DNA of 23,368 bases from a virus: positions 1 to 23,368 of the IMG/VR virus record IMGVR_UViG_3300020416_001617. The stretch is one strand, 5' to 3'. The translations under genes were made by a program, and so were the position numbers. The notes beneath the pieces were generated by a model. The model was not told where the DNA came from. It did no database searches and worked only from the letters and a program-made list of their open reading frames with translations. The stretch's first letter is position 1. Every line of letters starts with the position of its first letter. This document shows, in pieces, positions 1-23,000 of this stretch.

Positions 1-772
1 TCCAAGTAAATTGTTCTTGTTTACCCCACTCAAAAACACCGTTTTTAGAAGAGAATTCATTAACAGTTTTACTAGATTGATAATAATATACGTTGTTATC
101 AACTACAGTATGATGTACACTACTATTTTTAATATGAGTATGTTTTACAGCATCTATTGTAAATCCTGGAGGTGGATTTCCATCTGGACCCCATTCTGGT
201 GTATGAAGTAATCCACCGTTTGCTAATATACCAGTAACTTTATCTAATTGTACTTCTCTAGTATCAGGATCTGGTACATCTTTACCACCCCTGAATATAA
301 ATTCTTGATTAAATGCTCTATCTATTAAGTAATCCTGACCACCTGGTTCTCTTTCTTGGTCTATGATAGAAGGCTTAGGACTATTATCAGAAGTAATAGT
401 AAGTCTATCTGAGTTGGCACTAAATGTTCCTACAGTTGGAGAGTTTGGATGAGTTTGCCATATCCTATTAATATCAAATGAACTAATAACATTAGGAGTA
501 TCCTGAGATGGAATTATTTGTAACCTTAAAGGATCGTATCCTTTACCTCTTTCTAAAACTCTAACATGTATTATCTTACCAGATTCTTCATCAATAATTG
601 GATACAGTAATGCCTCCTGATCGGGAGTGCCACAACCAGTAATAGTTAAACGTGGAGGATCCTCTTGAGAATATGAATCCCCTCCTTCAACTACTCTTAC
701 TGCACGAACTCCAAAAACTTCATCAAATATAGGTTCAATTACAGCACCACTTCCAGGAACAGTTCTTGCCAT
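1..772 (-). CDS. Virion structural protein, partial (3' end beyond left edge)
   Basis: A reading frame absent of stops runs from an ATG at 772-770 to the left edge, giving 257 visible codons without the C-terminus. The protein starts MARTVPGSGAVIEPIFDEVF, a beginning I recognise from conserved virion proteins of T4-like marine phages whose exact role I cannot name. Residues about 22-48 and 67-88 form two degenerate copies of the Gly-rich strand repeat seen in the giant upstream gene (V-R-A-V-R-V-V-E-G-G-D-S-Y and V-R-V-L-E-R-G-K-G-Y-D). Residues about 98-115 (S-F-D-I-N-R-I-W-Q-T-H-P-N-S-P) look like a conserved core. A His-rich stretch lies near residues 210-221. No signal peptide or membrane segment is seen. 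The start lies 6 bp after the stop of the preceding gene, which suggests co-transcription and perhaps translational coupling. No Shine-Dalgarno sequence is visible; the leader is AT-rich. The start is supported by the recognisable N-terminus. Confidence 0.85.
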   Translation of the reverse strand, partial: MARTVPGSGAVIEPIFDEVFGVRAVRVVEGGDSYSQEDPPRLTITGCGTPDQEALLYPIIDEESGKIIHVRVLERGKGYDPLRLQIIPSQDTPNVISSFDINRIWQTHPNSPTVGTFSANSDRLTITSDNSPKPSIIDQEREPGGQDYLIDRAFNQEFIFRGGKDVPDPDTREVQLDKVTGILANGGLLHTPEWGPDGNPPPGFTIDAVKHTHIKNSSVHHTVVDNNVYYYQSSKTVNEFSSKNGVFEWGKQEQFTW

Positions 773-778
773 ATTTTA

Positions 779-2005
779 TTAACCGATTACGTTGATTACG
801 CCATTCATAGCAGCGTGTAATGTACACTGATAATAAAGAATAGCTGGAGCATCCATAGGAACAGTCCAATAAAGAACAGCAGTTCCACTACCAGTTTGAC
901 CAGCAGTATATGGGTTACCACTCAAACCTTGACTACTCTGTATTCTAAATGGGTGTGCAGATGCTTGGACAGTATTATCAAAAGCATATGTCATACCCTT
1001 CATAACAGAAAGAGTTGGGTCTGCAGTTGCACTAGCAAATCCAGGTCCAGCAATAGTATAGTCAGATGAACCATTAGCATTCACTTCCCACCAAGTAATA
1101 GGACTGCGTGTAACAACCCAATTAGTACCATTATAAAATAATGAATCTCCTTGTACTAAACCACCAACATCAGTATCAGTTAAATTGGCAAATGTAGTAG
1201 TAAGAGTTCCAGAAAAATCTACTGTTAAAGTATCACCAACAACTGTTGTTGTTATATTAGTTCCACCAGCAACTGTTAATGTATCAACTTGACTATTAGC
1301 AGTTGTAGATCCAGTATCACCAGCAACAGTAGCAAATAAGTTTACAGAACTAACTCCAGCAGCATCATCACCTGGTTTCCATTTAGCAGCAGTTGAATCC
1401 CATTTAAGAACTTGGTTATTTGTAGGAGCAACAGTAGTTGTATCAACGTCTGCTAATAAATCAACACTAGAATACTCTGTTGCTAACTTTGCTCTTACAT
1501 CACCAACACCACCTGTAGTAATATTAATGTTAACATATGGATTATCATCACCATCTACAGTAAAGAAGAATCCACCATAAGCTGCAGCAGAAGGTGCATT
1601 ACCTAATGCTGGAAATTCATTTTTGTAACCTACTCTCGTAGGGAAATCAAAGTCTCCAGTCGCACCATCAAAAGTAGCAGTAACACCGCCAGCAGAGATA
1701 GTAACATCTCCTGTTCCATTGGGAGCGAGAGCAATATTTCCATTACTTGAGGATATGATAGAATTTCCATTTACATCCAGTCCTGATGTTAAAGTTGTAA
1801 GATCTGATGGTAAAAAATTACTACCATTATAGCGGAGAACTTGACCAACAGCAGGGTTTGTGACACTAAGTTGGAGATTAGTACCATTACCAATTGCGGA
1901 ATATATTTCATTGAAATTGTCGTTAATCTTGTCGCCTCCACCACGGAGGGTATCCCCCGTGTTGTCATTAGCTACCGTACCAAGATTTAGTGATTGCTTA
2001 GCCAT
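779..2005 (-). CDS. Fibre-like virion protein with C-terminal cupredoxin-like domain
   Basis: This complete 408-residue frame lies between the giant gene and the next virion gene. Residues 6-35 (S-L-N-L-G-T-V-A-N-D...D-K-I-N-D-N-F-N-E-I-Y) match an N-terminal module common in marine phage tail or fibre proteins. Three copies of a fibre motif, G-Q-V-L-x-[YW]-[ND]-x-[ST]-x-x-[WF], sit near residues 53-66, 197-211 and 285-297. Residues about 125-170 and 220-267 are beta-rich modules of a type also frequent in such proteins. Residues about 300-408 resemble a cupredoxin: a T-Y-x-F-D strand, His351 in S-A-H-P-F, a W-T-V-P strand, then Y-Y-Q-C394-T-L-H397-A-A-M400-N-G. The C-x2-H-x2-M spacing equals that of amicyanin. 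Copper binding is inferred, not shown. No signal peptide is present, which fits a virion part assembled in the cytoplasm. No Shine-Dalgarno is evident; the ATG is chosen because the conserved N-terminal module begins there. Confidence 0.9.
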   Translation of the reverse strand: MAKQSLNLGTVANDNTGDTLRGGGDKINDNFNEIYSAIGNGTNLQLSVTNPAVGQVLRYNGSNFLPSDLTTLTSGLDVNGNSIISSSNGNIALAPNGTGDVTISAGGVTATFDGATGDFDFPTRVGYKNEFPALGNAPSAAAYGGFFFTVDGDDNPYVNINITTGGVGDVRAKLATEYSSVDLLADVDTTTVAPTNNQVLKWDSTAAKWKPGDDAAGVSSVNLFATVAGDTGSTTANSQVDTLTVAGGTNITTTVVGDTLTVDFSGTLTTTFANLTDTDVGGLVQGDSLFYNGTNWVVTRSPITWWEVNANGSSDYTIAGPGFASATADPTLSVMKGMTYAFDNTVQASAHPFRIQSSQGLSGNPYTAGQTGSGTAVLYWTVPMDAPAILYYQCTLHAAMNGVINVIG

Positions 2006-2029
2006 TTATCGCTACAATTTTTTAGTTAT
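2006..2029 (-). other. Short AT-rich intergenic leader
   Basis: These 24 bp separate the stop of the giant gene from the ATG of the 408-residue protein. On the coding strand it is mostly A and T, with no purine-rich Shine-Dalgarno and no inverted repeat that could act as a terminator. The two genes are therefore probably read on one transcript, unless the candidate late promoter just upstream is used. Confidence 0.6.
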
Positions 2030-2034
2030 TTATG
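2027..2034 (-). promoter_or_regulatory. Candidate T4-type late promoter -10 element
   Basis: On the minus strand the octamer CATAAATA overlaps the stop codon of the giant gene and matches the T4 late promoter consensus TATAAATA at 7 of 8 positions. It ends 21 nt before the ATG at 2005, which would leave a leader of roughly 15 nt. Such an element would allow the two downstream virion genes to be transcribed separately from the very long upstream gene. In AT-rich DNA this match may be chance, so confidence is low. Confidence 0.3.
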
Positions 2035-5000
2035 TTAATACTTCAGGGTCTACTAACTCTTCACCATATAGTGAAAGGTCAGGAGCAGTCCAATCGTCTG
2101 GTACAGTAGTTTCAACTGCAATATCTGGGTTCTGATATCCAGTACCTTGGTTATTAATAACAACTCCACCGACACCAACTAGTGCGTTAATATCTCCTTC
2201 AAAACCAGATATAGAATCAACCCTAACATTTGGTCTACTTGTGTATCCAGATCCCCCTGAAGTAACCTGTACACTATCAATAAATCCTGAAGTTAGATTT
2301 GCCTGTGCTTGTGCGTTCTGTCCAAATACAGAACCAAGATAGTCGAATGTAATTAGAGAGTTTGAAGACTCAATAACAGCAACCTCTCTATCTGATGTCT
2401 CACCTTGGATGTCAATAAAGTCACCAGGTTCGATAGGTGGAATAACTTCAGCAGCATCAACGTCTGCCTCAGAACCAACGTAGGAGAATCCAACAAATGT
2501 GGAACCTACACGAGGAATCTCAGAGAAGATGATACGTGAACCAACCAATTCAAAACCAACGCCTGGTTCCTGAATAACACCGTTAAGAGAAACGATGATA
2601 TTATTTTCAGGTCTAATGGTTGTAGACTGAACACCATCCGTAAGCGTTAGTGAGTAGAATACATCATTACGCTTGAGGTTGAATGACTGACGTAAGGAGT
2701 CGAACTCGAATGAAATATCATCCAACTGTCTCAACTTACCTACGTAGAATCCTGTGAATGATGCACCCAAATCTGGTGGTTCTGTGAACTGAATAGAATC
2801 AGAGAATGCTGTATAAGCAGCAGACGCACCAGGTGGTTGAAGAATACCATTAACAAATACAAGAAGATGTCCAGCTGGATCTGGTAGATACTGAGTACCA
2901 TTACCAGTAGAGAGTTTAAATGTAGTTTGAACTCCATCAAATCCCTTGAATGCTCTCTTAACACGTGCGAGAAGTGAAACTTTATTCACCACGATTGCCT
3001 TATAATTATCAGCACTGATAATGGCATCCTTAGTAACAAATGTTCCTTTAATATCACTTAGATAAACTCTCTTAAGAGTACCACTATCACGTATATCCTG
3101 AATTAAAGCTGAACCAGCACCAGGTGTGACAACCCTTGTAGTTACAGATGCGTAACCAACTGGGAAGTTATTTCCTACTCCATAATCACCTACGAGATCA
3201 CCATTTGTAAGAGGTGTTCCTTGGAAATCAGCAACATATAAGAAGTTGTTATCTAAATCAACTTCAGAAATTATTGCGTAATTATCAAAGTCCTGTATAC
3301 CACCAACAACCTTATAAAGTCTCTGACCAACGGTAAATTCATTCAATCCACTAATGATTGAAATACCCAAGCGTGTATATCCAGCAGATGCGATTCTGTC
3401 ACCAACTGATATATCAAAACCATCAAACTTACTAACTTCAATATATTGTCTAGAAACTTCAGGATAAACAACAGAAGTTGTTTCAAATGAACCTAATAGA
3501 GTTTCAGTATCAACTGTCAAAGTACCACCTGTATTATCAAGTACAGCAGCTTCTGTACGTATGAATTCGGTTGGGGTAGCAGTTGCACCACTAGTGTATG
3601 CCTTGAATGGAACCGATGCCTCAAATGTACCCTTAAGGTCTATAATTTGAATACGATCTGTAATTACACTAATCTGTCCTGTTGGTGGTAATTGTGCTCT
3701 ATCAGATTCAACTATATCAAGAGCTGCAAATGTACCAGCATTCATTATCACATCTACGTATCTGTAGTTCTCATCTTCCCATAATCCATGAACAGTTCCA
3801 TTTACAGCATTGTCAGATACCTTTCTAATAGTCTCACCTATCCAGAATGGTCCATCTGTTATCACAGCATCAAATCGTAATCTCTGATAGATGTTAACAA
3901 TCTCACCTTCATTAACAGTCATATTTTCTAATTCCGCATATGCACCACTTGCGAATCCATATAAGTAATCGGAATCATTCAATCCACCACCTAAACCAAT
4001 TGGTAATTCTCTAGTTCCATATGTGTAAGTAGGTATTCTAATACCATTGTTAACAGTGATATTAGTATAGAATGTATCTAAACCTAATTGTCCTTTTAGA
4101 ATATCTAAATTACTTCTAATACATCTAGTTACTGCTCTATCAGAATAATATCCTGACGCTGCAGCATCAAAGTACTTAACGTAACTTGCAGCAGTTGAAG
4201 GAGATGTAAGTGTGTTACTTATTGCTTGACTTGCATAAGTTTCTAAAGCATCTAAAGCATAAGTCTTAACATTATACTCAGTATCTGCGTAGAATATTTC
4301 ACCAAGTTGAGAAGTATATGGGTCAATAGTACCAACAGATAATTTAGCACCCCACATAAACATACCACTTGCACCATCACCCGTGTATGATAGAGAATTA
4401 GTAGTATCATACATTAAGAATTGAGCACGTAATTCACTAAATCCAAAGGATATGGTTGTTGTAATATATGCTCTATACCATCCATTACCATAAGGTACTG
4501 AACCATATGCATCACCACTTATACCACCTTGAGGTTGGAATAATGTTCCAGCAGTTCCTGTAGCAAGATCTAAGTCAAAGAATACATCTTGCTGACCAAC
4601 TGTACCAGCATCCATAACAAGACCGAATCTAACTTTATTAAATTCATCTCCTTTAAAGAATACTGAGAATGTGTATTGTTGATTATCATCATCAGTAGCT
4701 GCTCCACCTTCGTCAAATGTATTGTTTGTATCATCAAACTTAATAGATCCATCATCCCATGTATCAAAGGATGTTAAACTATAATTTCTGCTAGTAAAGT
4801 GGAAACCATTACTTGTGAAAGCAATTAGTTTTTCTGCAGTTTGTGTACCATCTGGTGCTTGTGCGAAATCATCACTAATAACAATGAAACCAGGAAGCCA
4901 ATCAGTTCTAATTGATTCTGGATTTGTGAATAAGTTAGGTGCAGATACCTGACCTTGAATATTAGATTGAATATTCTTAGCAAAAGCGATAGTTCTAACA

Positions 5001-8000
5001 TTTGCTGGTTTGTTAAACCAAGTATATGGATAACCAACTCCACCTATCTTAACATTTGCTACAACACCAGAACGTGTTCCTTCAAGTCTGTCATTTCCTT
5101 CCCAAGGAGCACCATACCATTTTCCAACAACTAAGAAACTACCTTCACTCTTATATTCAAGAACTACAGCAGAACCACCACCAGCTCTTTGACTGAATAT
5201 CATCTCACCAACTTCAAAAGCACCAGTAACATTTTCAATTTCAATATTATGTGCTACTGCTGTATCAGTAATATCAGTTGTAATTAAATCATGTACTAGG
5301 TTAGTAACAATAGTATTGAGCCAATCATCATACTGCCAAACAGAAGCACCGAACTGCTGTGTTACAAGAGTTGTAATCTCTTCTTTATAGTAACTCTGGT
5401 TGTAGAGTAAGTTCTTAGCAGCACCTCTCATTGCCAACTTACCAGGAGCAAGTATATTAAGAGCAATATCAACCAATTCCTTGAACCTAGTAACAACTGG
5501 ACTCATGTCAGTTGGTGTTAATGCATCTCTATATGCTTCTATAGTAGTATAGTTAAAGTTATAATTTGGAGGAGTTTCATTAGAATCTTTAGTGTACAAT
5601 CTATTAAGAATTGCATGCTCACCTAACCACTTCATCTGCTCAATAGCATATGTTGTTGCTAATAACTCATCTTCGATATAGTTAATTTGCATTGCAGTGG
5701 ATAGATAATTTTCCATTGCAGCAATAGTGCTATTATTTCCACCTGTTTGTAAGTCAGAAATAATACCCAACATAATAAGAGCTAGGTCACGTTGACATGT
5801 TTGAACGCCACCTGGTTCTGGATATAGGAAAGCATTGTAAACAGGACCACCTTCTACCAATTGGAATTGGAATTCATTGGTTACTAATGTTGTTATTTCA
5901 TCGGCAATTGACTTTCTATTGAAGTATAATCTATCAGCAGATATTGCAAAGTCACTATTTGTAGGAGCAATAATATCATTAGCAGTTGCAACTAAATTGT
6001 CTATTGCTTCCTTAACATTAGCACAATCACCAGGAGATACTATTCCATTAGCAGCAGCAGATACAAATGTATGTGCTTGAACATTTGTTGTACTACCAAC
6101 ATTAAATGTAATTGTTGTTGCATCAGCAGCAATGATTTCTAAGTTACTATTAGACGCAGGGTCAGTAGATCTTGGATATGAAGCCTGAGATGTAGAAACT
6201 GCGGTTACATTAACTGTAATTGTTGTACCAGTTACACCAGAAATTGCTAAGACACCATTATTAAGACCCGATGTATTAACAGATGCAGGGTCAGTAGGAC
6301 GTGGATATGTATGGTTAGAAGAATGATTATCGGCATCACAAGTAAATGTCAATCCATTATCAGCAATACTAATTGTATTACTTGTAGTCAAACTATGTGA
6401 CCCAATTTCTAATGTTAAATTACCATTTGAAGGATCGTATGTTGTTCCTGTTGCTGCAGTAAATGGTCCACCAGAATCTGCAGTAATAGCATTCGTAACA
6501 CCACTTACAAATGTATGAGTTCCTGTACCACCAGCACAACTGAATACTAGAGAACCATCTACGACATTAACATAGTCTCCAACTTCAAGACTATGAGTTC
6601 CAATAGTTGCAACAAGAATACCAGTTGCAGGATCATAAGTTGCTCCTGTTGCTGTAAATTGAGTTGCTGTTGATTGTGTAATACCCCAATCACCAACTAT
6701 AATTTTATCAGTATTATCATAAGTTAAATTACCAGTTATCGCTTGCTTCATGTAATGTGCAAGACGTAAATGTGCATATGCAGATTGGAATAACTGTAAG
6801 CGAATGTGTAAGATTACATCATTAGCACCAAGATATCTTCTAGCAACGTTAACTGTATTAAAGTTACCACCTTGTCTAAGGTCTTTAATAAATTCGGTAA
6901 GAATTAATGCTAAGTCAGTCTTACATTGTAGAGTACCATTACCACTACCATCAGCATTTCTAGGCATATCCAGAACAAGATCTGGATATAAAGTCAACAT
7001 ATCATGAGATGCTTTATCTACAATAGGACCAGCATTTGCTTCAACTAAATCAGCAGCATCTTGGAATCTATACTTACCATCACCACCAATTTGATTTGCA
7101 TAGATGATATCATCAGTAGAATTATGTAATGAAACTGGGAATGATTCTTCTAAGAATGCGTATACACGACCACCAAGGAATTCATTATCTGGATCTGAGG
7201 ATAGTCTCGATACAGAACCAAGATGATCTATAGGTGATGGATTATTAGCACCTTCTAAAGTATCAGTAACTATATCAATTAAATTTTCTACAGTTGCTTG
7301 AACATCTACACAATCACCTACACTATAATCCATAACAGTAACACAATTATTTTCTGCAGAAACAAATGAATGCTTAGTTAAGAGTTTCTTAACTGCACCA
7401 GGGTCAGCACTTGAGAATGTGTGTGTGGAATCTGGACTGTATATAACGTTATTACTACTTGCATTACCTGTAAATGTATGTGCATAATCACCACCAGTTA
7501 TAACTGCGGCTCTCTTAATACAATTAGTTGCATAAGACTTACCAGCTACAAATGTATGTGTAGTAACGTTAGTAGAAGGTGTTATATCTAAAACTTGTAC
7601 TTGGAAGGTATATGATGTCAATCCTGTAGATAGAACCTTCAACCACTTACCACTTGCAGGGTCAGTTGCTCTTGGGTATCTGTGCTCAGTAGCATTACCA
7701 TCCTTAGTACATGTAAATGTTAATGAATTATCATCAAACTTAATATACTCACCTGCATCCATATTATGAACAATATTAGTTGTAACAGTCATTATTCCTG
7801 TCCAACCACTATATGTTATTCCAGTTGGTGTGAACTTATCATATACTGTATAGAAAGCATGTTCTGTGGTATTACTAATAGCACCATTAGATATGTTAAC
7901 AGTGATAGAAGTTGAAGTTTTAGCAGTAATAGGATGAGATTTATTATAACCCCAATCACTTGTACGAGGATAGTAGTGAATAGTATTACCACCATCTTGA

Positions 8001-11000
8001 GCACAAATGAATCCAAATGATTGTTTAGCAATCTTAATACCATCACCAACCTCAAGTTCATGAGCACCAATATCAATAGTCAACATTCCAGTATTAGGAT
8101 CATATGCTGTAGTAGAACCAGCTGCCAATGAAGGATTGTAACCCTTAATAGGAGACTTACCAACATTAACTTTAATCATACCATTCTGTGCTCTAACACC
8201 ATTTGTTGCAGCTGCAGTAAAGGCATGAGTAGAAGTATCTGAAGATATTCCTACATTAACTTCAAATGTATCATTAGTCTTATTTGAGATAGCTAACCAT
8301 CTTCCACTTACAGGATCACTTGGTCTTGGATACTTATGTTCTGTTGTATATCCATCTAGATTACATTTAAATGTTAATGACTCATCAACAAGTTGAATGT
8401 AATCTCCATTGCTAAGTCCATGATTAGTCAATGTAATTACCATCAATCCAGTTGCAGGAGTGAATACTGCATTAGAAGCAGTGCCTGAATTGTAATATAC
8501 GTCAGTTACAGGAATTGATTTTTCAGAACCATAAGGATCTGTTGCACGTGGATATGTCTTAGTGGCAGTATTGCCATCCATATCACAAGTAAATTGTAAA
8601 GTATTGTTCTGTATAACAATATTAGAACCTTTACGTATTCCATGTTGACCAATTGTTAAGGTCATATCACCTGTTGATGCATCGTAAGTAGCAGCAGATG
8701 GTGTAAATGTCTGGTTAGTTCCAGCTATTCCTACATTAACTGTTATTGAAGTAGCATCTGTAGAAAGAACTGGTAATTCTTTACCAGCAGCACGAACATC
8801 ATGTCCAGGTCTAGGATAAGATTTAATGGACTGATTATTGTCCATTGTACATGTAAATTTAAGAGACTCATCTTCAATAATTACAAAGTCATCAGTTGTA
8901 ATATCATGAGCAAGAAGATTTATTTGTAATGAACCTGTTGATGGTGTGTATGTTGCAGTAGTAGGATTATATGGTTTGTAATTTTTATTGAATGAAGTAG
9001 GACCAACATTAACAGTAAATGAGTTTGTATCAAACTTAGTAATTGGTAATACTTGCTTAGATGAAGGATCTGTAGTACGTGGATACTTATGATTTGAACC
9101 CCTATCATCATATTCACATGTCATGGTTAATCCATGATCATCAATAGCAATTGCTCTACCTTTCTTCTTAAAGCATCCACCCTTAGCACCTGTAAGAGTA
9201 TGTGTATAAGCACCACCAGTTCTAATTACAGCACGTGTTAATCCATTTGTTACAGCAGATTGGAATTGGTGAGTAGTAGTATTAGAAGAAGTACCGACAT
9301 TAACAACAAAGGTATCTTTAGTAACACTAGATACTTGCAAATATGTACCGCTAGCTGGGTCAGAAGAACGTGGATATGTATGATCAGTCTGATAGTTATC
9401 TTGTAAACAACGGAATGTTATTGAACCATCGTCAAATTTAACCATATCTCCATTGTCAAATCCATGATTAGGAACAGTCACGGTCATTGAACCAGTTCCA
9501 GGAGTAAATGCAGCAGCAGTTACTGTGAATTTCTCTCCACCAGCTACAAATTCGTGTGTATAGTCACCACCAATAGTAAATGCTTTATCTACTGTTAGTC
9601 CACCCTTCCAAACGTGAGTGTATTGTCCACCACACTTGATAGCATCTGCACTAGCAGACTGGAATACATGAGTTGAAGTATTTGAAGATATACCAACATC
9701 AACTGTAATTACACCAGTTGGTCTCTGCATGCTGTTTGCAACAAAGGATACAAAGGTGTGTGTTGATGTATCACTAGACTTACCAATAAAGACATCAAAT
9801 GTATTTGTCTGAACATTATCTAATGGTAACCACTCAAAGTAAGATGGGTCTGTACGTCTTGGATATGAATGGTTTGTAGCATTACCGTCTTTAGCACAAG
9901 TGAATGTTACTGCATTCTCATCTAATCTAACCTTATCATTTGCTTTAACCAATCCATTAGCAACTGCTGATACCCATACGTGAGTTGTATTATTAGAAAT
10001 AGGTTGGTCACCAAATGCATTACCAACAGTCATGGTGAAATCATTAGCACTTGTGCGAAGAATTGGGAAGAATCTTCCACTAGCAAAATCACTAGATCTT
10101 GGATATGAATGGTTGGTAGAATTACCATCTTCAGCACAAGTAAAGACTAAAGAGTTATCAGCAATCTTAACCATGTCACCAGTTACAAATCCATGATTAG
10201 CAGATACTACGAATAGTTCACCTGTTGCTGGATTAAATGTTGTACCACTTTCTGCAGTCTTTGTAGTTGGAGCAGTTAATCCATGACCATCCATAGTTAT
10301 GGTCATGATACCTGTGGCTGGATTATAATCTGCATCAGTTGGAGTATGAGATGTAGTCTTAACTTCCTGAACATAAGTTGCAGTATTGTATGCATAGTCA
10401 GCACCACCAGGAGCATTAGAACCAGATGCACGAGGATATGTCTTATCTGTTGTCTGACCATCAAGATCGCAACGGAATGTTAATGAATCTTGCTCGATGT
10501 ATACAGAATCACCAGCTCTTGTAATACCATTTTGAACACAACTTACGAAGTTATGAGTGTAATCACCACCAGTAATTACAGCACCTGATAAAGATGAATG
10601 ATAGTTATGAGTACCAGCATGACTAATTGCGGTATCTGGTGATTCATTAACGTTTACCGTAATAGTTGTTGCATCCTTAGCAATAATATTCAATGCAGTA
10701 TTGTATGCATAGTCTTGATTATCACTTGTATTAGCACCATATGATCTTGGATATGACTTCTGAGTAGAGAATCCATCTCCACCATAATCACAAACAAATG
10801 TAATTGAATTATCTTTTAATCTTATACTAGTTCCAACTGAAAGACTATGTGTACCAATGGTAAGTACTAAGTTTCCAGATACAGGATCGTAAGTAGCATT
10901 AGAAACATCAAAGTCTAACTGTGGTGAAGTTCCTACGTTAACATCAAATGTATTATCAGTAACGTTAGAAATTAGCATCCACTCCCCAGACTTAGGGTCA

Positions 11001-14000
11001 GTAGATCTTGGATAAGTATGCTCACTACCGTGTTGGTCTAATGAACATGTTAATGATATTGCATTATCAGCAACCTTAATCTTATCTCCTATCATGAATC
11101 CATGATTAGGAATTGTAAGTGTCATTACACCAGTTGATGCAATATAATTTACATCAATTGCTGTATGAGTGGTAGAATCCTTAATCCAATGATTACCAAC
11201 AGTCAAGTCCATAATACCTGTCTCAGGTACATAGGTAGCAGCAGAAGGTGTGTATGCTGAGAACTTACTCTTACCAACATTAACAGTAAAGGCATTATTA
11301 TGAACCTTAACACCGTTAGTTGTTCCAGAAACGTATGTATGTGTATAAGCACCAAATACTGTTCTACCAACAAATACATCAAATGTAGTGTTAGTTGAAG
11401 CTTCTACAACACTCCATCCTCTTCTAAACACTGGGTCAGTCTTACGAGGATATGCATGGTTTGTAGCATTACCATCTTTAGTGCAACTAAAGGTAATAGC
11501 ACCTTCTTCAAATCTAACCATCTCACCAGCAACTTTCATGCAAGGGTTAGCAGTTACACCAACACATGTATGACCACTAAGGTCTTGAGACTTACCAATA
11601 AACAAGTCAAATGTATTTTCAGTTCTATTCTGTGCAGGTAACCATTCATCTCTTGCAGGGTCACCTGAACGTGGGTAGAAATGGTCTGTTGTCTCATCAT
11701 CTAATCCACAACGGAATATAAATGCACCATCATTAAGTCTAACAAGGTTACCATTGTATACCTGATGAGCAGATGATGTAATGGTTAACATTCCAGTAGC
11801 AGGGTCATAAGCAGCACCAGTACAATTTCTAGTACTTGGTGAATTTAATAATGAACCGATAGTAACGGTCATCATACCTGTTAATGGATTATATGTTGCT
11901 CCAGTTGCAGTCTTATCAACTTCGGAAATATCAATAACGTCAACAGCAGTACCACGAGCAGGGTCAGTTAATCTTGGATATGCGTGGTCGGTTGCTTGAC
12001 CGTCCATATTACATGAGAAGAGGAATGCTCCATCTCTAAGTCTAATACTATCACCAACCATTAAATTAGGATGTCCACCAAATCCAGGAGAACCAGGAGC
12101 AGAAGTAGAAATTACTAATGCACCAGTTACAGCAGTATAATTTGCACTAGAAACATCATATGCAATATTATGTGTCTTACCAACATCTAAAGTAATTGTA
12201 TTATCCTTATGAATAATACCATTAGGATCTGCAGACTTAAATGTATGTAATGAAAGGTCAGGAGATACACCAACATTTACATCAAATGTATTAGTAGTTA
12301 CATTAACAATCTTATGTAATCTACCGCTAGATGGATCTGTAGAACGTGGATATCTATGCTGAGTTATGTTGTTGTCCAACAAGCACTCAAATGTAAGTGA
12401 TTCATCAGCAATACGAACTTTATCACCATGAGCAAATCCATGACCAAACACCGTGATTGTTAATAAACCTGAATCAGGTGTATATGATGCAGAATTTGCA
12501 GTATGAGTAGTTCCTTCATATAGAATAGGTACACTATCCTGATAGATGAAATCATTTTCTCTTGGATACTTCTTAACATCCTGTAGTCCATCCATAGTAC
12601 ATCTGAATGGAAGACTACCTGTAGCAACCTTAATATTTGTACCAGCTCTCAATCTATGCTCACCAATAGTCATCTTAAGAAGACCTGTTGAACCACTGTA
12701 TGTTGCAGCAGTAGGATTGAATATTACGTCAGGTGTTTTACCAACATCAACTTGGAAAGTTGTTGAGTCAACAACAACAACATCTAACCAACCTTGACTT
12801 GCATGATCAGAAGCTCTTGGATACTTATGCTCAGACCTATTCTGATCCATAGTACAAGTAAATGTTAGAGACTCATCTTCAATTTGAAGTTTGGAACCTG
12901 CTGTAAGATTATGAGCACTGGCAGTTGTACATGTAAGCATACCAGTAACGGGGTTATATCCACCACCATTGATTGATAATGTTGTTTCACTAAACAAACC
13001 ATGTGATGATTTTAATATCTTTAATTCACCAGTTGCAGCATTATATTCTGCTCCTGAAGGTGTAAATTTAGTTGCAGCATTACCACTAGATTCTGTAATA
13101 CTAGTATCAAATTTTTGCTTTTGTCCATGATTACCCTGAACATCCCAAGCATCATTGGTTATGACATATCTTAAAATTTGATTTAATTTACCGTAAGTCC
13201 AAACAGTTTCTACAATCTCATTTTCAACGTTAAGTAATTTAACGTTGTTTATATCTTCTCTATCAACATAATATGATGCAGCAAGCCAAATCTTCTCATT
13301 ACTACCATTACGTAAATCGTGTGCAATAGACTTACAAATATCTTTAACATCATCTTGGCAATTTACACTACCATTAATTACAGTGAAATCTGGGAATTTC
13401 TGTTCTAGTAGATATACTGACTCTTGAGCAATGAATTCTAAGTTGGATTCAATCAACGTAGCAGCATTGTAATACCTGTTGGTATTTCCAACAAAACCTC
13501 TAGAAACTGCTCTACCAACATTAACTGTAATTGTAGTACCAGTTACTGAATCAATTGTTAATGCTACTCCATGTGCAGGGTCAGTTGGTCTTGGATATCT
13601 ATGCTCAGTTGCATGATTATCCTTATCACAAGTGAATGGTAACTTATCAGTACCAATAGTTACAGTATTAGATGTTGTATAACTATGAGATCCAATAGTC
13701 AATACTAAAACACCAGTCTCACCATTATAAGTTGCATCAGTAACATCCTTTATAGTTCCATCATTAAATGTAAGAGCAGCATTTGAAGTACCAGCTACAA
13801 ATGTATGATTACCAACATAACGAACGGTAGAAATTATAGCATCGTTATTGAAATATTCTCCCTTTGTGAATGACTCAGAACCAGACCAATCTTGTACCCA
13901 TTGCTGACCATCTTTACCATCAAAGTGAAGTAACATCTTAGTAGCACTATCACCTTGGAATATTCCAGCTAAAGGTGTAAATGCAGATGCATATCTAATA

Positions 14001-17000
14001 GTATTGGATATTCTTACTTCATCAATATGACCGATAAATCCAGTTCCAAATGCATAACCAACACCAATAAAGAGTGGTTTAGCAACATAATTTGAATTAT
14101 CAGTTCCTGTACCAACCTCAACACCATCAATATACAACTTACCAGATGTACCTGTTCTGGTATAAGCAACATGAGCCCATGTATCAGCAGTTAGAGATGT
14201 TCCAACAGAAGTTACAAGATCTGCATTATTAACATTCCAACGAAGTTGACCACTTTCGATATATACTCTCAATGCAACTTCATTAGCACTTGAAACTCTT
14301 GTATCAAAAACATCGATAGTTCCACTTAATGAAGAAGAATCAGGACGTATATAGAATTCAAAAGTAAAGTCACCAGTACCAAAAGCAATTTCAGAAGTTG
14401 TTTGACACCAGATATAATCTGTTGTTCCAGCAGTTAATTGTAATGAACCAGCACCATACTTTTTCTGTGCAGTATCAATCTGAGCACTACCAGCAAAAGT
14501 AAAATCAAAATAGTCTTCACCATTAGACTTAGTTCTACCAATCTTACCAAGATATACTGTATTACGTGCTTGGTTATATCCAATAACTTCAGCCTTAGTA
14601 TCTCTAGATCTTATAACTTGACCAGAACTAAAGAATCCAGTTCCTTCTTTATCATAGAAGGACATCTTTCTAACTTTACCAGTTTCACCAGTTACAAATT
14701 CATTAGTATTATTACCATATTCAATCTTATAATTGCGAATATTTTCATTGAGTTGTAATGTTCCTGTTAGATTATTAAATGGAACAATATAATTATTAAT
14801 CTGTTCGTTAGATGGGAAGTTACCATTATACGGAGTTAAATTATCAGTAGCATCAACAATACTTACTGCAGATGCTGCAATGTCATCTAAGACAACATTT
14901 GGATAAGTTTGAGATGTAATTCTGTTGAATAGTAATCCAAAGAATGAAGAACCAGGAGAAATATCTACCTGTCCAATAAACTCATTAGTTATAGGATCTT
15001 GATAAGCAGATGTCGAAGTAATTCGTGCTATAACACCAGACTGTGCTCCATAGATAACATCATTCAACTGAATATCAAATAATCCAGGTGTTGATGTATA
15101 TGTACCTGCAGTCTTACTTAAAGTTAACTTATCAGTAACCTCAATTTTAGTACTATAAAGTGGAGTATTATCTTGCTGATTCGCTGCAGTTGTACCAAGA
15201 ACATTTCTTACAACTGTAAGTGATGTGGATTCTGCATTATCTACAGTGCTTATAAGAGTAAAGATTTCAGATCCTACTTGATAATTAACATTAGCATCAA
15301 ATGTTCCTATAGGTACTGGTTGTGGAGTTTCTGATGTTGGATCAATAACTTCAAATACAGTTGTAGAAGGACCAATAGAATACCTTAATTTAGCAATAGG
15401 CATCTCTTGTCCAGTTTCTAAGTTAACTGATTCAACCTTTGCAGTATTACCTTCTAAGTTTGTAATATTTTCATTAAAAGTAAATAGTCCAATACTTCCA
15501 ACTGGAGTTATAGATGCTAAGTTTCCAGCAAATCCTGTTGCTATAACGTTACATAATTCACCAAGTACAAAACTACCATCAGTTATATAACCAGTAACTA
15601 CAGTACCAACTACTTTCAATACAGTAAATCTAGCATCAGAAGAACTACCCTTAATCTCATTACCAAGACCAGGATAAATTCCACTAGGATTATTGAATAT
15701 CATTTCATATCCCTGAATAGGATCAATGGTAACAGAAGCATATTTAACACTTGCTGGTGGTCTTGGTGGTTCAGTGAATACTATAGAATCCTGTTGAATT
15801 GTAAATGCTGTCTCTGGGTTCTGTACAACACCATTCAAGACAACCATTAACTGATTTGCGTTAGCAACAACAGTACCACCATTAACTGTTAATGGGAATG
15901 AAGTCTTAATACCATCAAACTGGCTTGATATATCATCAACTCTCTGTACAACAGAAGTTAGAATGTTCTCAGAAGATGTCAATCTCTTCTGTCTGAATAG
16001 TACTTCTGTATTATTAAACTCAGTGTAAATTGGATCTACAAGAGCAAAGTTTTGAATATTTGGAACAATTGCTTCTTGAGCAAGTTCAACAGATTTAGTA
16101 AGTTCAAAGAATGTCTCTTTATTTGGAATTTGACCATATTCATTCAAGTTCAACTCACCAAACACCTTAAATGATGCAGGGTGAACGTTCCTAATTAGAA
16201 TCTCTTTCCACTCACTGATAGAAACAGCAGACTTAACAGCATAAGAGAAGTCCTGATAGTAGTAAGAGTCTTGGATCTTCTGAATAATTTCAGATGGTTT
16301 ACCAACATCATCGATGAATTGACCAGTAGTTTTAGTGATAGAACCAATATCTAGAACACCACGAGCAAACTTAAGGTCACTAATAGTACCAGAAGACTTA
16401 GAAATAACACCAGTTATTTGTTGATTTTCTGCAAACACACCAGTATAATCAACAATCTTAAGAATTCTAGGTCCAATCTGCCAACCAGAGTTAGTTGAAA
16501 CATATCCTTGTGCTGTTGCTGTCTCTAAAGAATCACCTTGATAAACAAGTTCACCTTCAAGGAAGGTAGAAGTGATAACGTTAGCAGTAGCTTCACCACC
16601 GAATGATTCAGTTAAGATACTCTGACGACCTTCACCAGCGTTAACAAATGATAGTGCATCACCTAATTCTGCGTTTTGAGGAGTAATAGCAATCTTTAAC
16701 TGATCATCTTCTAGAGAATTTGCACTACCAGAAATCGCATAATAAGTGGTATTTGGATTAAGACGACCTGTTGCACCAGCAGATAGAGGATAATCAGCAC
16801 CATCTCCAGTATCTGTTACAGCAACACTAATTTCAGCACCATTAGTAATACCATGTGGATAAGCAAACTGTAATAAACCTAAGTCAAGGTTTACAACATA
16901 GTTGAATGAAGACCTAAGACTTACAGTAGGAGTAGAAGAATATCCAGCACCTGGGTCTTTAACTTCAATAATATCCAATCTACCATTCTTAATAGTTGCT

Positions 17001-20000
17001 TCAGCAGTTGCTCCAGATCCACCACCACCTTGAATTATTACAGTTGGTGCTAATGAATATCCAGAACCTGGATTCGTAACAGTAATACTCTCAAGAATAC
17101 TTGTAGAAGTTAACTGAGCATTAAGTGGGAATGTAATTTCAGGACGTAAAGTATAGTCATGAGGATAATCATAACCAAAGTTATTGTTCTTAAGTTTCTT
17201 AATCTTACCAACTTTATCACCCTTAGTAAAGATAGATGCTTCAGTACCGAAAGGTGGAATAACAACTGATAAATCTGCACCAGATCCAGTTAAACCAGCA
17301 CCAAGAATACCAGAAACACCTTCAACGTCAATTGTAGCAGTAGTATATCCTTTACCTGGAGATGTGACGAGAACTTCTTGAATCTGACCTGGAATGGTTA
17401 TACCTTCATCATCCTGTCCATCAGCAACAGTAATTTGAACAAATCCACCTTCACCATCACCAGCAATAGGTACACCATTATATGTTCCTACAGCATATTC
17501 AGTTCCTGGTTCAACAATTTGAACTCTTTCAATCTTTCTTGTAGATGCGATACCAGTAACAATAGGTAACTTGGTATAGAAACCACCTGGATTAATAATA
17601 CGAATATCACCAATAGAACCAACTGCCTTTAATGAACTTGTAGTATATGATGTTCTTGAAATATCACCAATACCTTCTGGCTCATTTAATAATGGGAATT
17701 TAAATACATCAGCACCACGAGTAATTGTTTGACCAGAAGTACTGCTAATTGTAAATGTACCAGTATAAGGTGAGTCTGTTACATCAAGATAACTGTCAGA
17801 AATTACAGGAGAATCATCACCAGTTCTAGAAGGATCGAAATAATAAGAGATATTAGTAACTATATTATTATCAACTTTTAACTTAACTGATGGATTTGGT
17901 TGTCCTTGACCAGTTAAACCAGGAGTTCCAATTCTTTCAATAGAGTTGAATGAATACTCCAACTTATAAAGGTTATCCTTAGCAAATGATAAGTTACCAC
18001 CAACAAGTGTAGAGTGACCCAAATCAAAGATATATTGGTGTCCATAGTACATCTTAAGAGTTGGAGACTTAACAAATATACCAACACTAGAAGCATTAGT
18101 TGCAGGAGCAGTTACAGCAGTTTGTGGTAATTTGTAAGTAAATTCAAGTGGACTTACAACAGTATCAACAGCAAATGCACCATCATACTCATCATAAACA
18201 AGACCGCCAAAATTCTGTGATGGGTTACCATCAACATAAACAATTTCACCTTCAGATAAGTAATGACTTGTTCCTGTGATTACATAGACCTCATCGCTAT
18301 TATTAACAGCAGTTATTTGAAGTATTCTCTCTAGATTAGAAATCAATGTAATCTTAGTAACACCTGTTAAATTTGTTATCTGAGTTGTATTGTAATCAGC
18401 ATTGAAAGATATATCATCAGATGTAAGTGAAACTACAGATCCAACAATGAACGATGAACTACCACCAATTTCATCAATTCTAACTGAATAGTCACCTACA
18501 TTAAACGGTTTAAATCTAGCAAAGTCATTTAAGTTATTAGTTCCACCAATATCAGCAGGAGCATCATAAGTGGACATGTCAATGTCAAATGTTCCAGGAG
18601 TTGTATTATCAACCTGTGCGAAGGTATATGCCTTCATTTCATTAACATCATTTGGAACAGGACCAACTATTCCATAAGTATCTTGCTCATTAAATTGCTC
18701 ACTAACTAAGATACCAGTGTTTAAATCATTACTCCAAGGATTATTTTGAACAGCAACATAAATTTTTCTGTTAGGTATATCAGATTTTATGATATATCCA
18801 CTATTAATAAATGTACCACTAGAAAGATTATTAAGTCTTAACTTAGAACCAGTAGTAAATATAAACGGTTGATTTATAGTTAACTCTTGAATATTATCAA
18901 TTTTAACTGTATTAGTAACCTTAAAGAAATACCTATCCTTAACTACAGCAGATACTTGTAATTTTTGAGAACCTGGAGAAGGAACAGTTGCTGTTCTAGA
19001 ACTCCAAATATCATTGGTATATGTCAATGTCTCCGTACCAGGAGTCATTGTTATAGTAGCATCATCAAAGTCTAAAGTTTGTAGACCTGCATCACCCAAT
19101 GCAAAATCAGCTTCACCTATTGTCATTGAAGATCCAATAACAGGAGTTACAGCAGTTCTGACAAATCCTAATTGAGTATTAGTTTGTACACCTTTATCAC
19201 CCAATCTAGTAGCATCAGCATTCTTATCTACTTTTAAATTCCATGCATTATAGTCAATATAATCGTACTTAGTTAAATTATTAGTGAACCAAGCAGTGTC
19301 TGTCCAAGCAAATCCCAATGCAAATGATGCAACAGGAGGTAAACTTGAAATATCAGAAGGTACAGTAACAGGAACTGCTCTATTTCTTAATCTAATATTA
19401 TCAATAAAGAACTGACCTTGATAATTTTGACTGAAATCTGTAGCACCAGTACCAAAACCAATCTGGTTACCAAAGTACAGATCTTTAGTAGCAAATGAAG
19501 TATTTGATAATGTACCACTTATTACTTCTATACCATTAACAAATGCTTTAAATACATTACCTTCTTTCCTTACAGCAATGGTTTGCCAACTATTGTCAGC
19601 ATACATTGTTGTTTGTGTGGATGATTGTCCCGAACCATTAATTAACTGAGTTGTTTGATTGGTAATAACCATCTGCAACTCACCAGAGGAATTATCATAT
19701 CCTAACCATAGTCCACCAGTAGCATCTCTAGCACCACCGATACCCATTATAGTTTGGACATTTTGTGATAAAGTCTGAGATTGTGATCCAGATTTGTATA
19801 TAAAGAACTCTAAAGTCCAATCATTTGCTAATGTTGTGCCTAAATCAGCTCCAGCAACCTTAAGATATGAATTTTCCCATGTAGAACTAGACCCAGCTGG
19901 TTGATAACCGTAGATCTTAGCCATATTATCATCATAAGTTATAGCACTACTTGCTCCAACTGAAGTTAAAGTATAGTTGCCAGTTAGATCTGTTTGCTCA

Positions 20001-23000
20001 TTAGCAGCAAAATCGAAGATAAACTCATTTCTATTCCATTGAGTTTGACCAGAAAGGTAAATATCACCAGAATTATCAGTATTAACTGAATGAACAGTTA
20101 TACCTTCAATACGGTTTTGATTAAATTCATTAGTTGTATGATTCTTAATAATACCATTATATCCAATCTTAACTGAATCTACAGTTTTAACACCAGTTGT
20201 ACTATTGTCTCTACTAAATGCAACATTTAAATCTCCAAATATATCGATAGAACTCCTATCTGCCATAGTGATATCTCTACCAGGAGCAACATAACGATAA
20301 TTCCAAATTATACTACCAGTTCTACTAACTTTACAAACCCAGAAACTATCTTTCTGTGTAGGATCAGACTTAAATCTTAATGAAGCAGAAATATAGCACT
20401 CATTAAATTCATCAAAGACAAGACTACCATCAACTAATGAATATACAGATGTACTGTACTCTTTAATAAAGTCTATATTAATTGCACTTGTAGTTAAAGT
20501 TGCTTTACCAAATGCAAGATTAACATCGGTAGTAGCTTGATTTAACGCCACTTCCATTAGGAAGTATAATTCTGTAGCTCCCTCAGTGGTTGTTATAACC
20601 TTCATATCTACAATCTTTTCAGATTTACTAGTAGATACAAGCTTTCTCTTAATAGCAAAATTACCAGTACTATCAATAGATGCTAAAAATGCATCATATG
20701 GGTTACTGGAATTTGTATTAGTATAACCACCAATAATGAAACGAGTATCACTCCATTTTTGAATTGCGGATACATGGTCAGCACGAGTAGCACCAGAGAT
20801 ACCAGCATATCCTTTCTGGAATTGTAATCCAGCACTTAATCCATTTTCTGCCTGAGTATACTTAGCAAGTATAACATCTGGATTATATGCATCAAGTAAA
20901 TTGGAATTTGGCTTATTATTACCAACTACCCAAACATCAAGACCATCTACAAAAAGTTTTTGGAACTCTGTATAGTATTGTCCATCAGTACTTTCTAAAG
21001 TATTTTCCCACTCTTTAACACCTGTAGCAGATAATTTAGCAACAAAACCTACTGTATTTCCAACAGCATCCTTTGTTTTACCACAAATAAAGATCTCCTT
21101 ATTATCACTAACGTGAGTATCATTAATTTTAACATAATTCTGATTTTCGAGTTTAGAAATATAATAATCTGCTTTCTTAAAGACCTGTGGATGAGATAAT
21201 ATAACACGAGGATTGGATGTATATCCAGAACCAGAATTTAAAATATTAACTTGATCAATAGCACCAACAGTTGATACAACTGCTTCTAATTTTCCAGAAG
21301 TACCATCACCATCAATTGTAATAGTTGGTGGAATGTCTGTATTGTATCCAGAACCTCTTTGGTCAATAACAATCTCTTCTATACCTTTATATTGACGAAC
21401 TACAAACGTTTTGTTTGTATTCTGCATTATAGGAGTATAATCTATGTAAACAACATCACCAGCAACTAGATTATGAGGATCTGCTGTCTGTAAAACACCG
21501 TAATTAGAACCACTAATATTCTCAAACTCATATGAAGCAACTGATTCACCCTTAATTTTTGAAATACGAGCAGATACACCAGCTCCATCAGTATCGGTAT
21601 TATCAAATATTAATCTATCATCTACCTGATAGTTCTTACCTGTGTTCTCAACAGTAAATCCAGTAACAGAAGCATCTTCAAATTTAGTTGTTGTTTCAAC
21701 TTCAATATCAACTTTAGAGTCAAATTTAACTTTAGGGAAGTAATCAAATAACTGTAAAGGTGACTCCTCAAACATTTGATCAGGGTCAGCAGTCTCTTCT
21801 GGACCTATAATTCCATCTCTATTCTCATCTTCCACTTCAAACAACAAGATCTCACCATCTTCAGTTGTTAAAGCAGCAGTAGAAGCATTAGGTGTTCTTT
21901 CAACATCAATATCAACATTCTCATAAGGGTCTCTGTAACGTACAACTCCAGTTGGTATATTCTGCTGAATTGCATTTGAACTAAGGTTCCAAGAATCAAC
22001 AACTGAGTTGAAACTTGGTCCTATAACATATGGGAAAAGTGGACTACCTAAATCAGTAGCATCAATAGTAACGAAATAAGCATAAGCACCATCAGGGAAA
22101 TCAGGAGTCTTACAAAAACGACCATTATACTGGTCTAAGTCACCTAATCCAAAACTATACTCATAGTCTTCTACAAAATTACCAGCAGGTTCCTCTGTTA
22201 ATAATGGACCAGCAGTTCTATTTGGAGTTGGATTAGTAGTATCATCATAAACCAATTCATCCCTTAATTTGTAAGAAGTTCTAAGTCTTACGATAGCAGA
22301 ACTCTGGTCAGTAGGATCATTATATCCATAAGGACCATAAATTGGGTTACCATCAAAAGCCCAACCTATAATTGGAGAGTGAGTTAACTGCTCTTCTTGT
22401 TCGAGAATATTTCCTGTGCCAATTTCTTCATAAAGGTTATCTCCAAGAATATATCTCATCCTTTGAGGATTGGATAGGTGAGCATACTCACCACCATACT
22501 CATTATTGTAACCAGTAAATACAGAACCTTTAGCAGTATCAAACTGTGAAGTTGCTTGAAGGTTATAATTCCATTGGAATACATTTGCAGTGAATGTTGC
22601 ATTCTGACCAACAGAAGTTAGATTGATAATCGTTGTACCCTGAACGTAGTTAATACCTTTGTTAATAATCTCAATATTAGTAACCCTACCAGCATTTTCA
22701 CCATCAGTATCAATAGTAGCACGAGCAACAGCACCAAATCCTTCACCTTGAACGGTTACTTCAGGTGCAGTAGTATATCCAGATCCAGCAGAAATGATAG
22801 CAATAGATATAATTCTACCATCATTAACAATGGCTTGTGCAACAGCACCTTTACCAGAACTTAGTGTTACTGTTGGACTTGAAGTATATTCAACACCACC
22901 ATTAGTAATACCAATAGACTGAATAGGTCCACGAACAGATGCAGTACCAGCAGCACCAGTTCCACCACCACCAACAATAGTAATAAGTGGTTGTGAAACG

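Follow-up and report, generated by a model that had tools for sequence, protein, structure and literature searches.

The window analysed here is the whole stretch of 23,368 nucleotides from the virus record IMGVR_UViG_3300020416_001617 of IMG/VR (positions 1 to 23,368), and its minus strand carries a gene for a giant structural protein with an array of repeated units. Each unit has a Cys half followed by the triplet Tyr-Pro-Arg (YPR), and is called here a Cys-YPR unit. A total of 21 YPR triplets were found in the open reading frame (ORF) at 2030-23368, 20 of them with a Cys half in front. The motif C-x2-D-x5-[HK]-x-YPR is exact in 19 of these 20 units, and unit 9 has two additional residues. 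The [HK] position is occupied by His in 15 units and by Lys in five (units 3, 9, 10, 15 and 16). The giant gene and the array, whose motifs run from 13630 down to 6299 with the orphan YPR besides, are composed as follows.

2030..23368, minus strand: giant structural protein, phrog_701; 7112 amino acids (aa) in the window, N-terminus beyond the window end
6170..13630, minus strand: array of 20 Cys-YPR barrel units (fold predicted) and one orphan YPR half
13589..13630, minus strand: unit 1 motif CDKDNHATEHRYPR
12815..12856, minus strand: unit 2 motif CTMDQNRSEHKYPR
12560..12601, minus strand: unit 3 motif CTMDGLQDVKKYPR, Lys type
12344..12385, minus strand: unit 4 motif CLLDNNITQHRYPR
11972..12013, minus strand: unit 5 motif CNMDGQATDHAYPR
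11669..11710, minus strand: unit 6 motif CGLDDETTDHFYPR
11444..11485, minus strand: unit 7 motif CTKDGNATNHAYPR
11006..11047, minus strand: unit 8 motif CSLDQHGSEHTYPR
10745..10792, minus strand: unit 9 motif CDYGGDGFSTQKSYPR, Lys type, two residues longer
10430..10471, minus strand: unit 10 motif CDLDGQTTDKTYPR, Lys type
10097..10138, minus strand: unit 11 motif CAEDGNSTNHSYPR
9857..9898, minus strand: unit 12 motif CAKDGNATNHSYPR
9368..9409, minus strand: unit 13 motif CLQDNYQTDHTYPR
9077..9118, minus strand: unit 14 motif CEYDDRGSNHKYPR
8810..8851, minus strand: unit 15 motif CTMDNNQSIKSYPR, Lys type
8546..8587, minus strand: unit 16 motif CDMDGNTATKTYPR, Lys type
8324..8365, minus strand: unit 17 motif CNLDGYTTEHKYPR
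7964..8005, minus strand: unit 18 motif CAQDGGNTIHYYPR
7670..7711, minus strand: unit 19 motif CTKDGNATEHRYPR
6299..6340, minus strand: unit 20 motif CDADNHSSNHTYPR
6170..6178, minus strand: orphan (21st) YPR without Cys half

A sequence-only reading of the window had reported the same 21 triplets, 20 Cys halves, 19 exact motifs, longer unit 9 and His to Lys ratio; our recount agrees, and all motifs and the orphan YPR fall inside the range 6030-13745 that it had given. YPR occurred on average 0.39 times, and at most three times, per shuffled copy of the same protein (300 shuffles), and the exact motif occurred in none of these 300 shuffles. Each motif sits in the middle of a domain about 78-110 residues long. 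The 20 window units share a mean pairwise identity of 29% (range 16-52%, 190 pairs), and in their alignment, where unit 9 aligns via its second Asp, the Cys, Asp, Tyr, Pro and Arg do not vary. The Phe two residues before the Cys and the Asp three residues after the Arg are also near-invariant. Close to the array end there are a Cys half without YPR at about 6536 and the YPR half without Cys at 6170-6178. Truncated half-units of this kind inside arrays suggest recombination between copies.

Conservation and predicted fold of the unit

Residue numbers from Phe38 to Asp56 are columns of a 78-column hidden Markov model (HMM) of the unit. The first HMM was built from the window units, all of which bear the motif, and motif-less barrels are consequently under-detected. 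From 1474 HMM rows we retained 1258 units with at most 30% gaps, 513 below 70% identity, and finally 477 spanning the hairpin that contains the motif. Among these 477 units, Pro is kept in 477, Cys in 474, Tyr in 464, Asp56 in 463, Arg in 460, His or Lys in 441 and Asp43 in 429. A pattern that includes the motif was used to fetch loci L068-L215; the 102 units outside these loci have Cys in 102, Pro in 102, Tyr in 100, His or Lys in 99, Arg in 98, Asp56 in 95 and Asp43 in 91. The His at column 21 is conserved at 80%. Ten relatives with 44-95% identity over the array were compared at the codon level. In each of them 72-80 sites of the residues Cys, Tyr, Pro and Arg could be aligned and none had changed amino acid, while as much as about half of the remaining array sites had. 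Synonymous changes do occur at these sites, as in L025 with 21 of 72, against 1029 amino-acid changes at 2031 other sites. Because the Cys, Tyr, Pro and Arg codons change synonymously and never in amino acid, strong purifying selection acts on the protein.

The residues tend to be lost in linked pairs. Asp43 and His/Lys49 are both missing from 18 units (Fisher p = 1e-10), and Arg53 and Asp56 from nine (p = 1e-11). Nine units without Asp43 and His/Lys49 retain Cys and YPR, most of them with a Gly-rich loop. Lys replaces His in 104 of the 441 His/Lys units; all 104 have the Cys, and 88 have Asp43. By this co-loss and the Lys swaps Cys, YPR and Asp56 are the core, and Asp43-His/Lys looks like an exchangeable polar pair rather than two metal ligands. 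In the L159 protein, five of seven units have His-Pro-Arg for Tyr-Pro-Arg, and Cys is present in all seven.

These patterns bear on the metal binding proposed in the sequence-only reading. Coordination of a metal such as iron or zinc by Cys, Asp and His would draw on suitable residue types within one hairpin, and a passage in PMC11705849 reports potential iron sites of the HxH type in marine phage fibers. The Lys swaps, which leave every Cys in place, and the nine Cys-YPR units with neither Asp nor His/Lys speak against it. An obligate metal site is contradicted by them, and metal binding of any kind appears very unlikely.

The same reading had offered a Cys-based crosslink. A covalent link or redox switch, either an inter-chain or inter-unit disulfide or another Cys crosslink, would lock the array as a shaft. 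The presence of Cys in nearly all hairpin-spanning units would suit such a role, as would the six Cys-less units reaching past the hairpin, five of which also lack the Arg of YPR; the converse case, Cys without a full YPR, was found in 20 of the 477. No second conserved Cys was found in the 78-column unit, where every other column has at most about 5% Cys, and the link within a unit is thus unlikely. Where an isolate giant has just one detected unit, as five do, the Cys is present in every case, so it does not depend on a link between neighbouring units. We base the argument on these five; in a larger set, all 53 proteins in which one unit was detected have Cys, but many of the 53 were fetched by the pattern or cut by a locus end. 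In the isolates, the automatic Cys count was 104 of 107 unit rows, with YPR in 99; by eye, two of the three misses are incomplete rows that contain Cys, and the third, Sf-CH1b, lacks both Cys and YPR. A general Cys-Lys bridge is at odds with the His found in most units. Links between chains or units may still form, and we regard a locking role of the Cys as improbable overall.

Two regions of the array were modelled.

8171..8500, minus strand: unit 17 with flanks, single model, small beta-barrel (predicted local distance difference test, pLDDT, 93.6; predicted template modelling score, pTM, 0.85)
7874..8713, minus strand: units 16-18, joint model (pLDDT 87.7, pTM 0.65)

The alignment for the three-unit model (A2) was composed of the window and 78 of 331 candidate rows chosen for few gaps. 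For the single-unit model (A3), 120 of the 122 candidates with a following THxF-like element, out of 392, were taken with the window, giving 121 sequences. The hairpin blocks of the single unit reach pLDDT 95-97, and the Cys...YPR stretch is predicted to form one hairpin of the barrel. In this model Cys46 closes the strand 42-46, Asp49 closes a helical turn at 47-49, and the return strand 54-57 contains His55 and Tyr57. The hairpin strands agree with the covariation pairs 37-50, 39-48, 43-47, 42-49 and 53-56. The entropy is 0.02-1.89 bits at the implied inward positions (36, 38, 40, 47, 49 and 51) and 1.49-3.17 bits at the implied outward ones (35, 37, 39, 41, 46, 48 and 50). The sequence-only reading had left it to structure prediction whether the conserved residues gather or scatter; in the models of adjacent units and of the single unit they are neighbours in one predicted hairpin. 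Its other check, a search for a described domain, gave no significant match of any Pfam or NCBIfam model to the array.

Structural comparison placed the unit near two kinds of known barrels. The FCCH domain (first catalytic cysteine half-domain) of the ubiquitin-activating enzyme E1 matched with Z 8.2 and a root-mean-square deviation of 2.8 over 83 of 110 residues; its function is unrelated to the phage unit. The phi92 endosialidase was the top Foldseek match (E 6e-3, probability 1.00, template modelling score 0.56-0.57) with Z 7.7, and the K1F/NF endosialidase barrel (residues 422-511) gave Z 7.0-7.3. The barrels of these phage endosialidases are part of an enzyme and share 14-20% identity with the unit, at Z 7.0-7.7 over 83 residues. 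Foldseek probabilities were 0.97-1.00 for the upper E1 and endosialidase rows; 6e-3 was the best E-value, and no row stood at or below 0.001. V-ATPase barrels follow just below with Z 6.6-6.7, and as they score so close behind, the barrel may be a common arrangement. Sequence scans of Pfam and PDB gave no match that would indicate homology to E1-FCCH or endosialidase. The named BFVD rows for the three-unit model include structural, tail and baseplate-labelled proteins of cyanophages and an "endosialidase" of a Synechococcus phage. We also considered the hairpin as an insert into a standard phage barrel, which found no sequence support (profile comparison with motif-less barrel-like N-termini of the same loci, probability 1.5%).

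Given the likeness to endosialidases, the units could be glycan-binding barrels, and the array could bind cyanobacterial surface polysaccharide multivalently, by analogy with the K1F endosialidase barrel. The phi92 and K1F/NF barrels are the nearest phage folds, the giant has further lectin-type domains, and the K1F barrel is described in a passage of PMC12632334 as one of the three polysialic-acid sites of its enzyme. The E1 domains, however, match the unit equally well. We know of no sugar binding by E1 domains. Moreover, the most conserved residues lie on the hairpin face read as inward, and the outward positions mostly vary between units, which is not like one conserved ligand site. Since the nearest phage fold has a glycan site, multivalent receptor contact may still be made by the array, and we consider glycan binding unlikely, though less so than the metal or the crosslink.

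Spread of the unit and place of the giant gene

A single unit used as tblastn query matched 324 of 50,697 phage records, by name 243 of Synechococcus, 49 cyanophage, 22 of Prochlorococcus and ten marine virus. With 580 array residues as query, 360 phage records of the same kinds were found. In metagenomic loci the unit stands behind at least ten kinds of N-terminus, including fibers, a gp9-like protein and the wedge protein that follows gp9, and it thus behaves as a mobile module. That wedge protein has one Cys-YPR unit in several relatives of window 2-772 (e.g. L025, L030 and L034). The viral scan with the unit HMM covers the matches listed. The unit is already contained in existing PHROG clusters and lacks a Pfam or NCBIfam model; a description of the domain was not found in the open-access literature (one library, limited wording). 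phrog_5342 (tail fiber) and phrog_1276 (unknown function) each match both array-bearing segments in 7-12 stretches and therefore contain the same units. They are family clusters, with no account of the domain or the Cys-YPR hairpin.

The bacterial-genome collection yielded 28 loci, 26 of them with the unit (all except L073 and L079), under titles that are mostly metagenome bins. Three of the 28 are on one Prochlorococcus single-cell contig and one is in a Nonlabens isolate. They are likely phage contigs assigned to the wrong bin. The unit was seen on contigs filed as Euryarchaeota, Dehalococcoidia, Planctomycetaceae and others (L068-L095). Among six source records checked, a photosystem reaction-centre gene was found in two, Nonlabens and Prochlorococcus, and none in the 63-kb contig of the window or in three metagenome bins. 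Five units were detected in locus L081 (NZ_RMVE01000006.1, 188,235 bases) of the Nonlabens xiamenensis 1Q3 assembly, and this assembly has the photosystem gene (PF00124) on G001:C10. The locus looks like a cyanophage genome inside the assembly of a flavobacterium isolate.

Besides the array, the following features were recognized in the giant and its neighbours.

22055..22585, minus strand: YHYH domain (PF14240), E 7.6e-30
19376..19873, minus strand: laminin-G/concanavalin-like lectin domain 1 (PF13385), E 1.1e-6, marginally above the cut-off
14000..14404, minus strand: laminin-G/concanavalin-like lectin domain 2 (PF13385), immediately upstream of the array, E 9.9e-22
4328..4945, minus strand: region like the head spike fiber Rcc01080 (PDB 6tb9), downstream of the array, E 1.2e-11
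779..2005, minus strand: gp9-like baseplate wedge tail-fiber connector (PF07880, phrog_677)
2..772, minus strand: next baseplate wedge protein (phrog_708), start only, the rest cut by the window end

The N-terminal half of the giant also has NGGSGYTSSP-type repeats with Gly-rich runs, at about 22600-23300 and 16900-17700. A 63-kb IMG/VR contig (G006) is 100% identical over 580 compared residues and holds an exact copy of the first 60 bases of the window on that strand. It extends the giant upstream by 1098 aa, with no Cys-YPR unit in the extension, and by these residues beyond the 7112 in the window the full-length giant has about 8210 aa. The profile of phrog_701 (giant virion structural protein) matches with E 0 in three of three segments (positions 1095-6135 of 6136). 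It covers the array in pieces only and is outscored by phrog_18802 (virion structural protein) in the last segment. The PHROGs entry phrog_701 gives no domain or function for the repeat.

In the window, the giant gene is followed by the gp9-like ORF and the start of a further baseplate wedge gene, and the order is alike in Prochlorococcus phage P-SSM7 (gp25, gp6, giant of 7124 aa, gp9, wedge, gp8). Twelve other isolate giants match the N-terminal 1000 residues of the P-SSM7 protein, along the whole of that stretch, at 44-86%. The gp9-type connector comes immediately after the giant in ten of the 13 complete homologous isolate giants; one gene lies between them in ACG-2014d and P-RSM6, and the next gene in S-MbCM100 is unnamed. 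gp6 is immediately upstream in all eight isolate giants with the upstream side in view. The window protein is the giant structural protein encoded by T4-like cyanophages upstream of gp9. A passage in PMC3037559 names a protein of cluster T4-GC969 among those detected in the purified S-SM1 virion; Syn19_088 is a T4-GC969 member in the slot of the giant, and the S-SM1 copy itself lies outside our comparison. The giant shares with T4 gp7 the position after gp6, and some records call it gp7 or similar to gp7. A phmmer comparison of T4 gp7 with the 1600 N-terminal residues of the P-SSM7 homolog gave one non-significant match (E 0.4, 31 residues). In a passage of PMC7029224, T4 gp7 is described as absent from cyanomyophages and pelagimyophages.

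Copy number, protein length and the proposed role of the array

The shortest of the 13 homologous isolate giants is that of S-MbCM100 (6064 aa, one hairpin-spanning unit) and the longest that of P-RSM6 (8573 aa, 18 units); the window giant has 20 at about 8210 aa. The phage S-RIM8 has one unit, and P-SSM4 has 11. Over these 14 giants, length and number of hairpin-spanning units are correlated with r = 0.96 and a slope of 111 aa per unit. Syn30, whose gene runs off the record, and the fibers of S-RIM44, Sf-FR1 and Sf-CH1b, which are other genes, were omitted. P-HM2 has six units in 4454 aa; its gene is in the same place, with gp8 as the next gene, and the product lacks the first 650 residues that the others share. 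It shares only part of the first 1000 residues of the P-SSM7 giant, and results are given with and without it. The data support that the unit number, 1 to 20, explains most length differences among homologous giants, and the array is the main expandable segment of the protein. The alignment, the model and the length relation together bear out the earlier proposal of a shared structural site repeated along a segment, here one of variable length.

The domain, its fold prediction, the constraint on its residues, the range of copy number, the length relation and the gene slot are supported by the data. We infer in addition a rod shape, attachment to the baseplate, a role in reach and a structural role of the Cys. 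On balance we favour a reading in which the array is an expandable shaft, and the protein, about 8210 aa long, an adhesin-like giant of the T4-like cyanophage virion that is probably attached at the baseplate; Cys, Tyr-Pro-Arg and Asp would make up the structural core. The barrels would line up as a rod and hold the lectin-type domains, namely the YHYH domain, the two laminin-G domains and the region like a head spike, off the baseplate. By recombination between copies, phages may gain or lose units and tune this reach. The conserved residues would serve structure, as a core, and not catalysis. One face of the hairpin would carry Phe38, Cys40, Thr/Ser47, His/Lys49 and Tyr51, two polar pairs would be made by Asp43-His/Lys49 and Arg53-Asp56, and Pro52 would set the hairpin exit.

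Several points weigh against this interpretation. Baseplate attachment is deduced from the position of the gene. The addition of P-HM2 (n = 15) lowers r to 0.73, and the giants share descent, so that there are fewer independent points than 14. The placement of neighbouring units relative to each other is uncertain (pTM 0.65). The clustering of the conserved residues is drawn from secondary structure and covariation; the strong covariation pairs 34-50, 37-48 and 39-45 are off one exact register, inward (up to 1.89 bits) and outward (from 1.49 bits) entropies overlap, and Thr/Ser47 is present in just 52 of the 104 Lys-type units. Finally, packing usually accepts Ala, Ser or Val in place of Cys. 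These residues hardly ever replace the Cys of the unit, and a purely structural role explains that poorly.

This strictness leads to a reading that we hold to be marginally less probable even than the locking link considered above, in which the Cys-YPR hairpin is a new structural element with covalent or redox activity. After release of the virion from the reducing cell, the Cys would react, be it with a side chain in the same hairpin, with an added group or with a partner chain, and the reaction would stiffen or lock an adhesin that lengthens by added units. The shaft with a structural core remains our preferred explanation.

The ocean is rich in T4-like cyanophages, and for several of the giant proteins of their baseplate region the annotation goes no further than structural or hypothetical protein. 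The present analysis assigns to these giants a domain with a predicted fold and a conserved core, and it supplies copy number against length as a measurable variable that is testable against fiber reach and host range. The range from 1 to 20 copies in related phages is a natural experiment on adhesin length, and the strictness of the Cys poses a precise chemical question.

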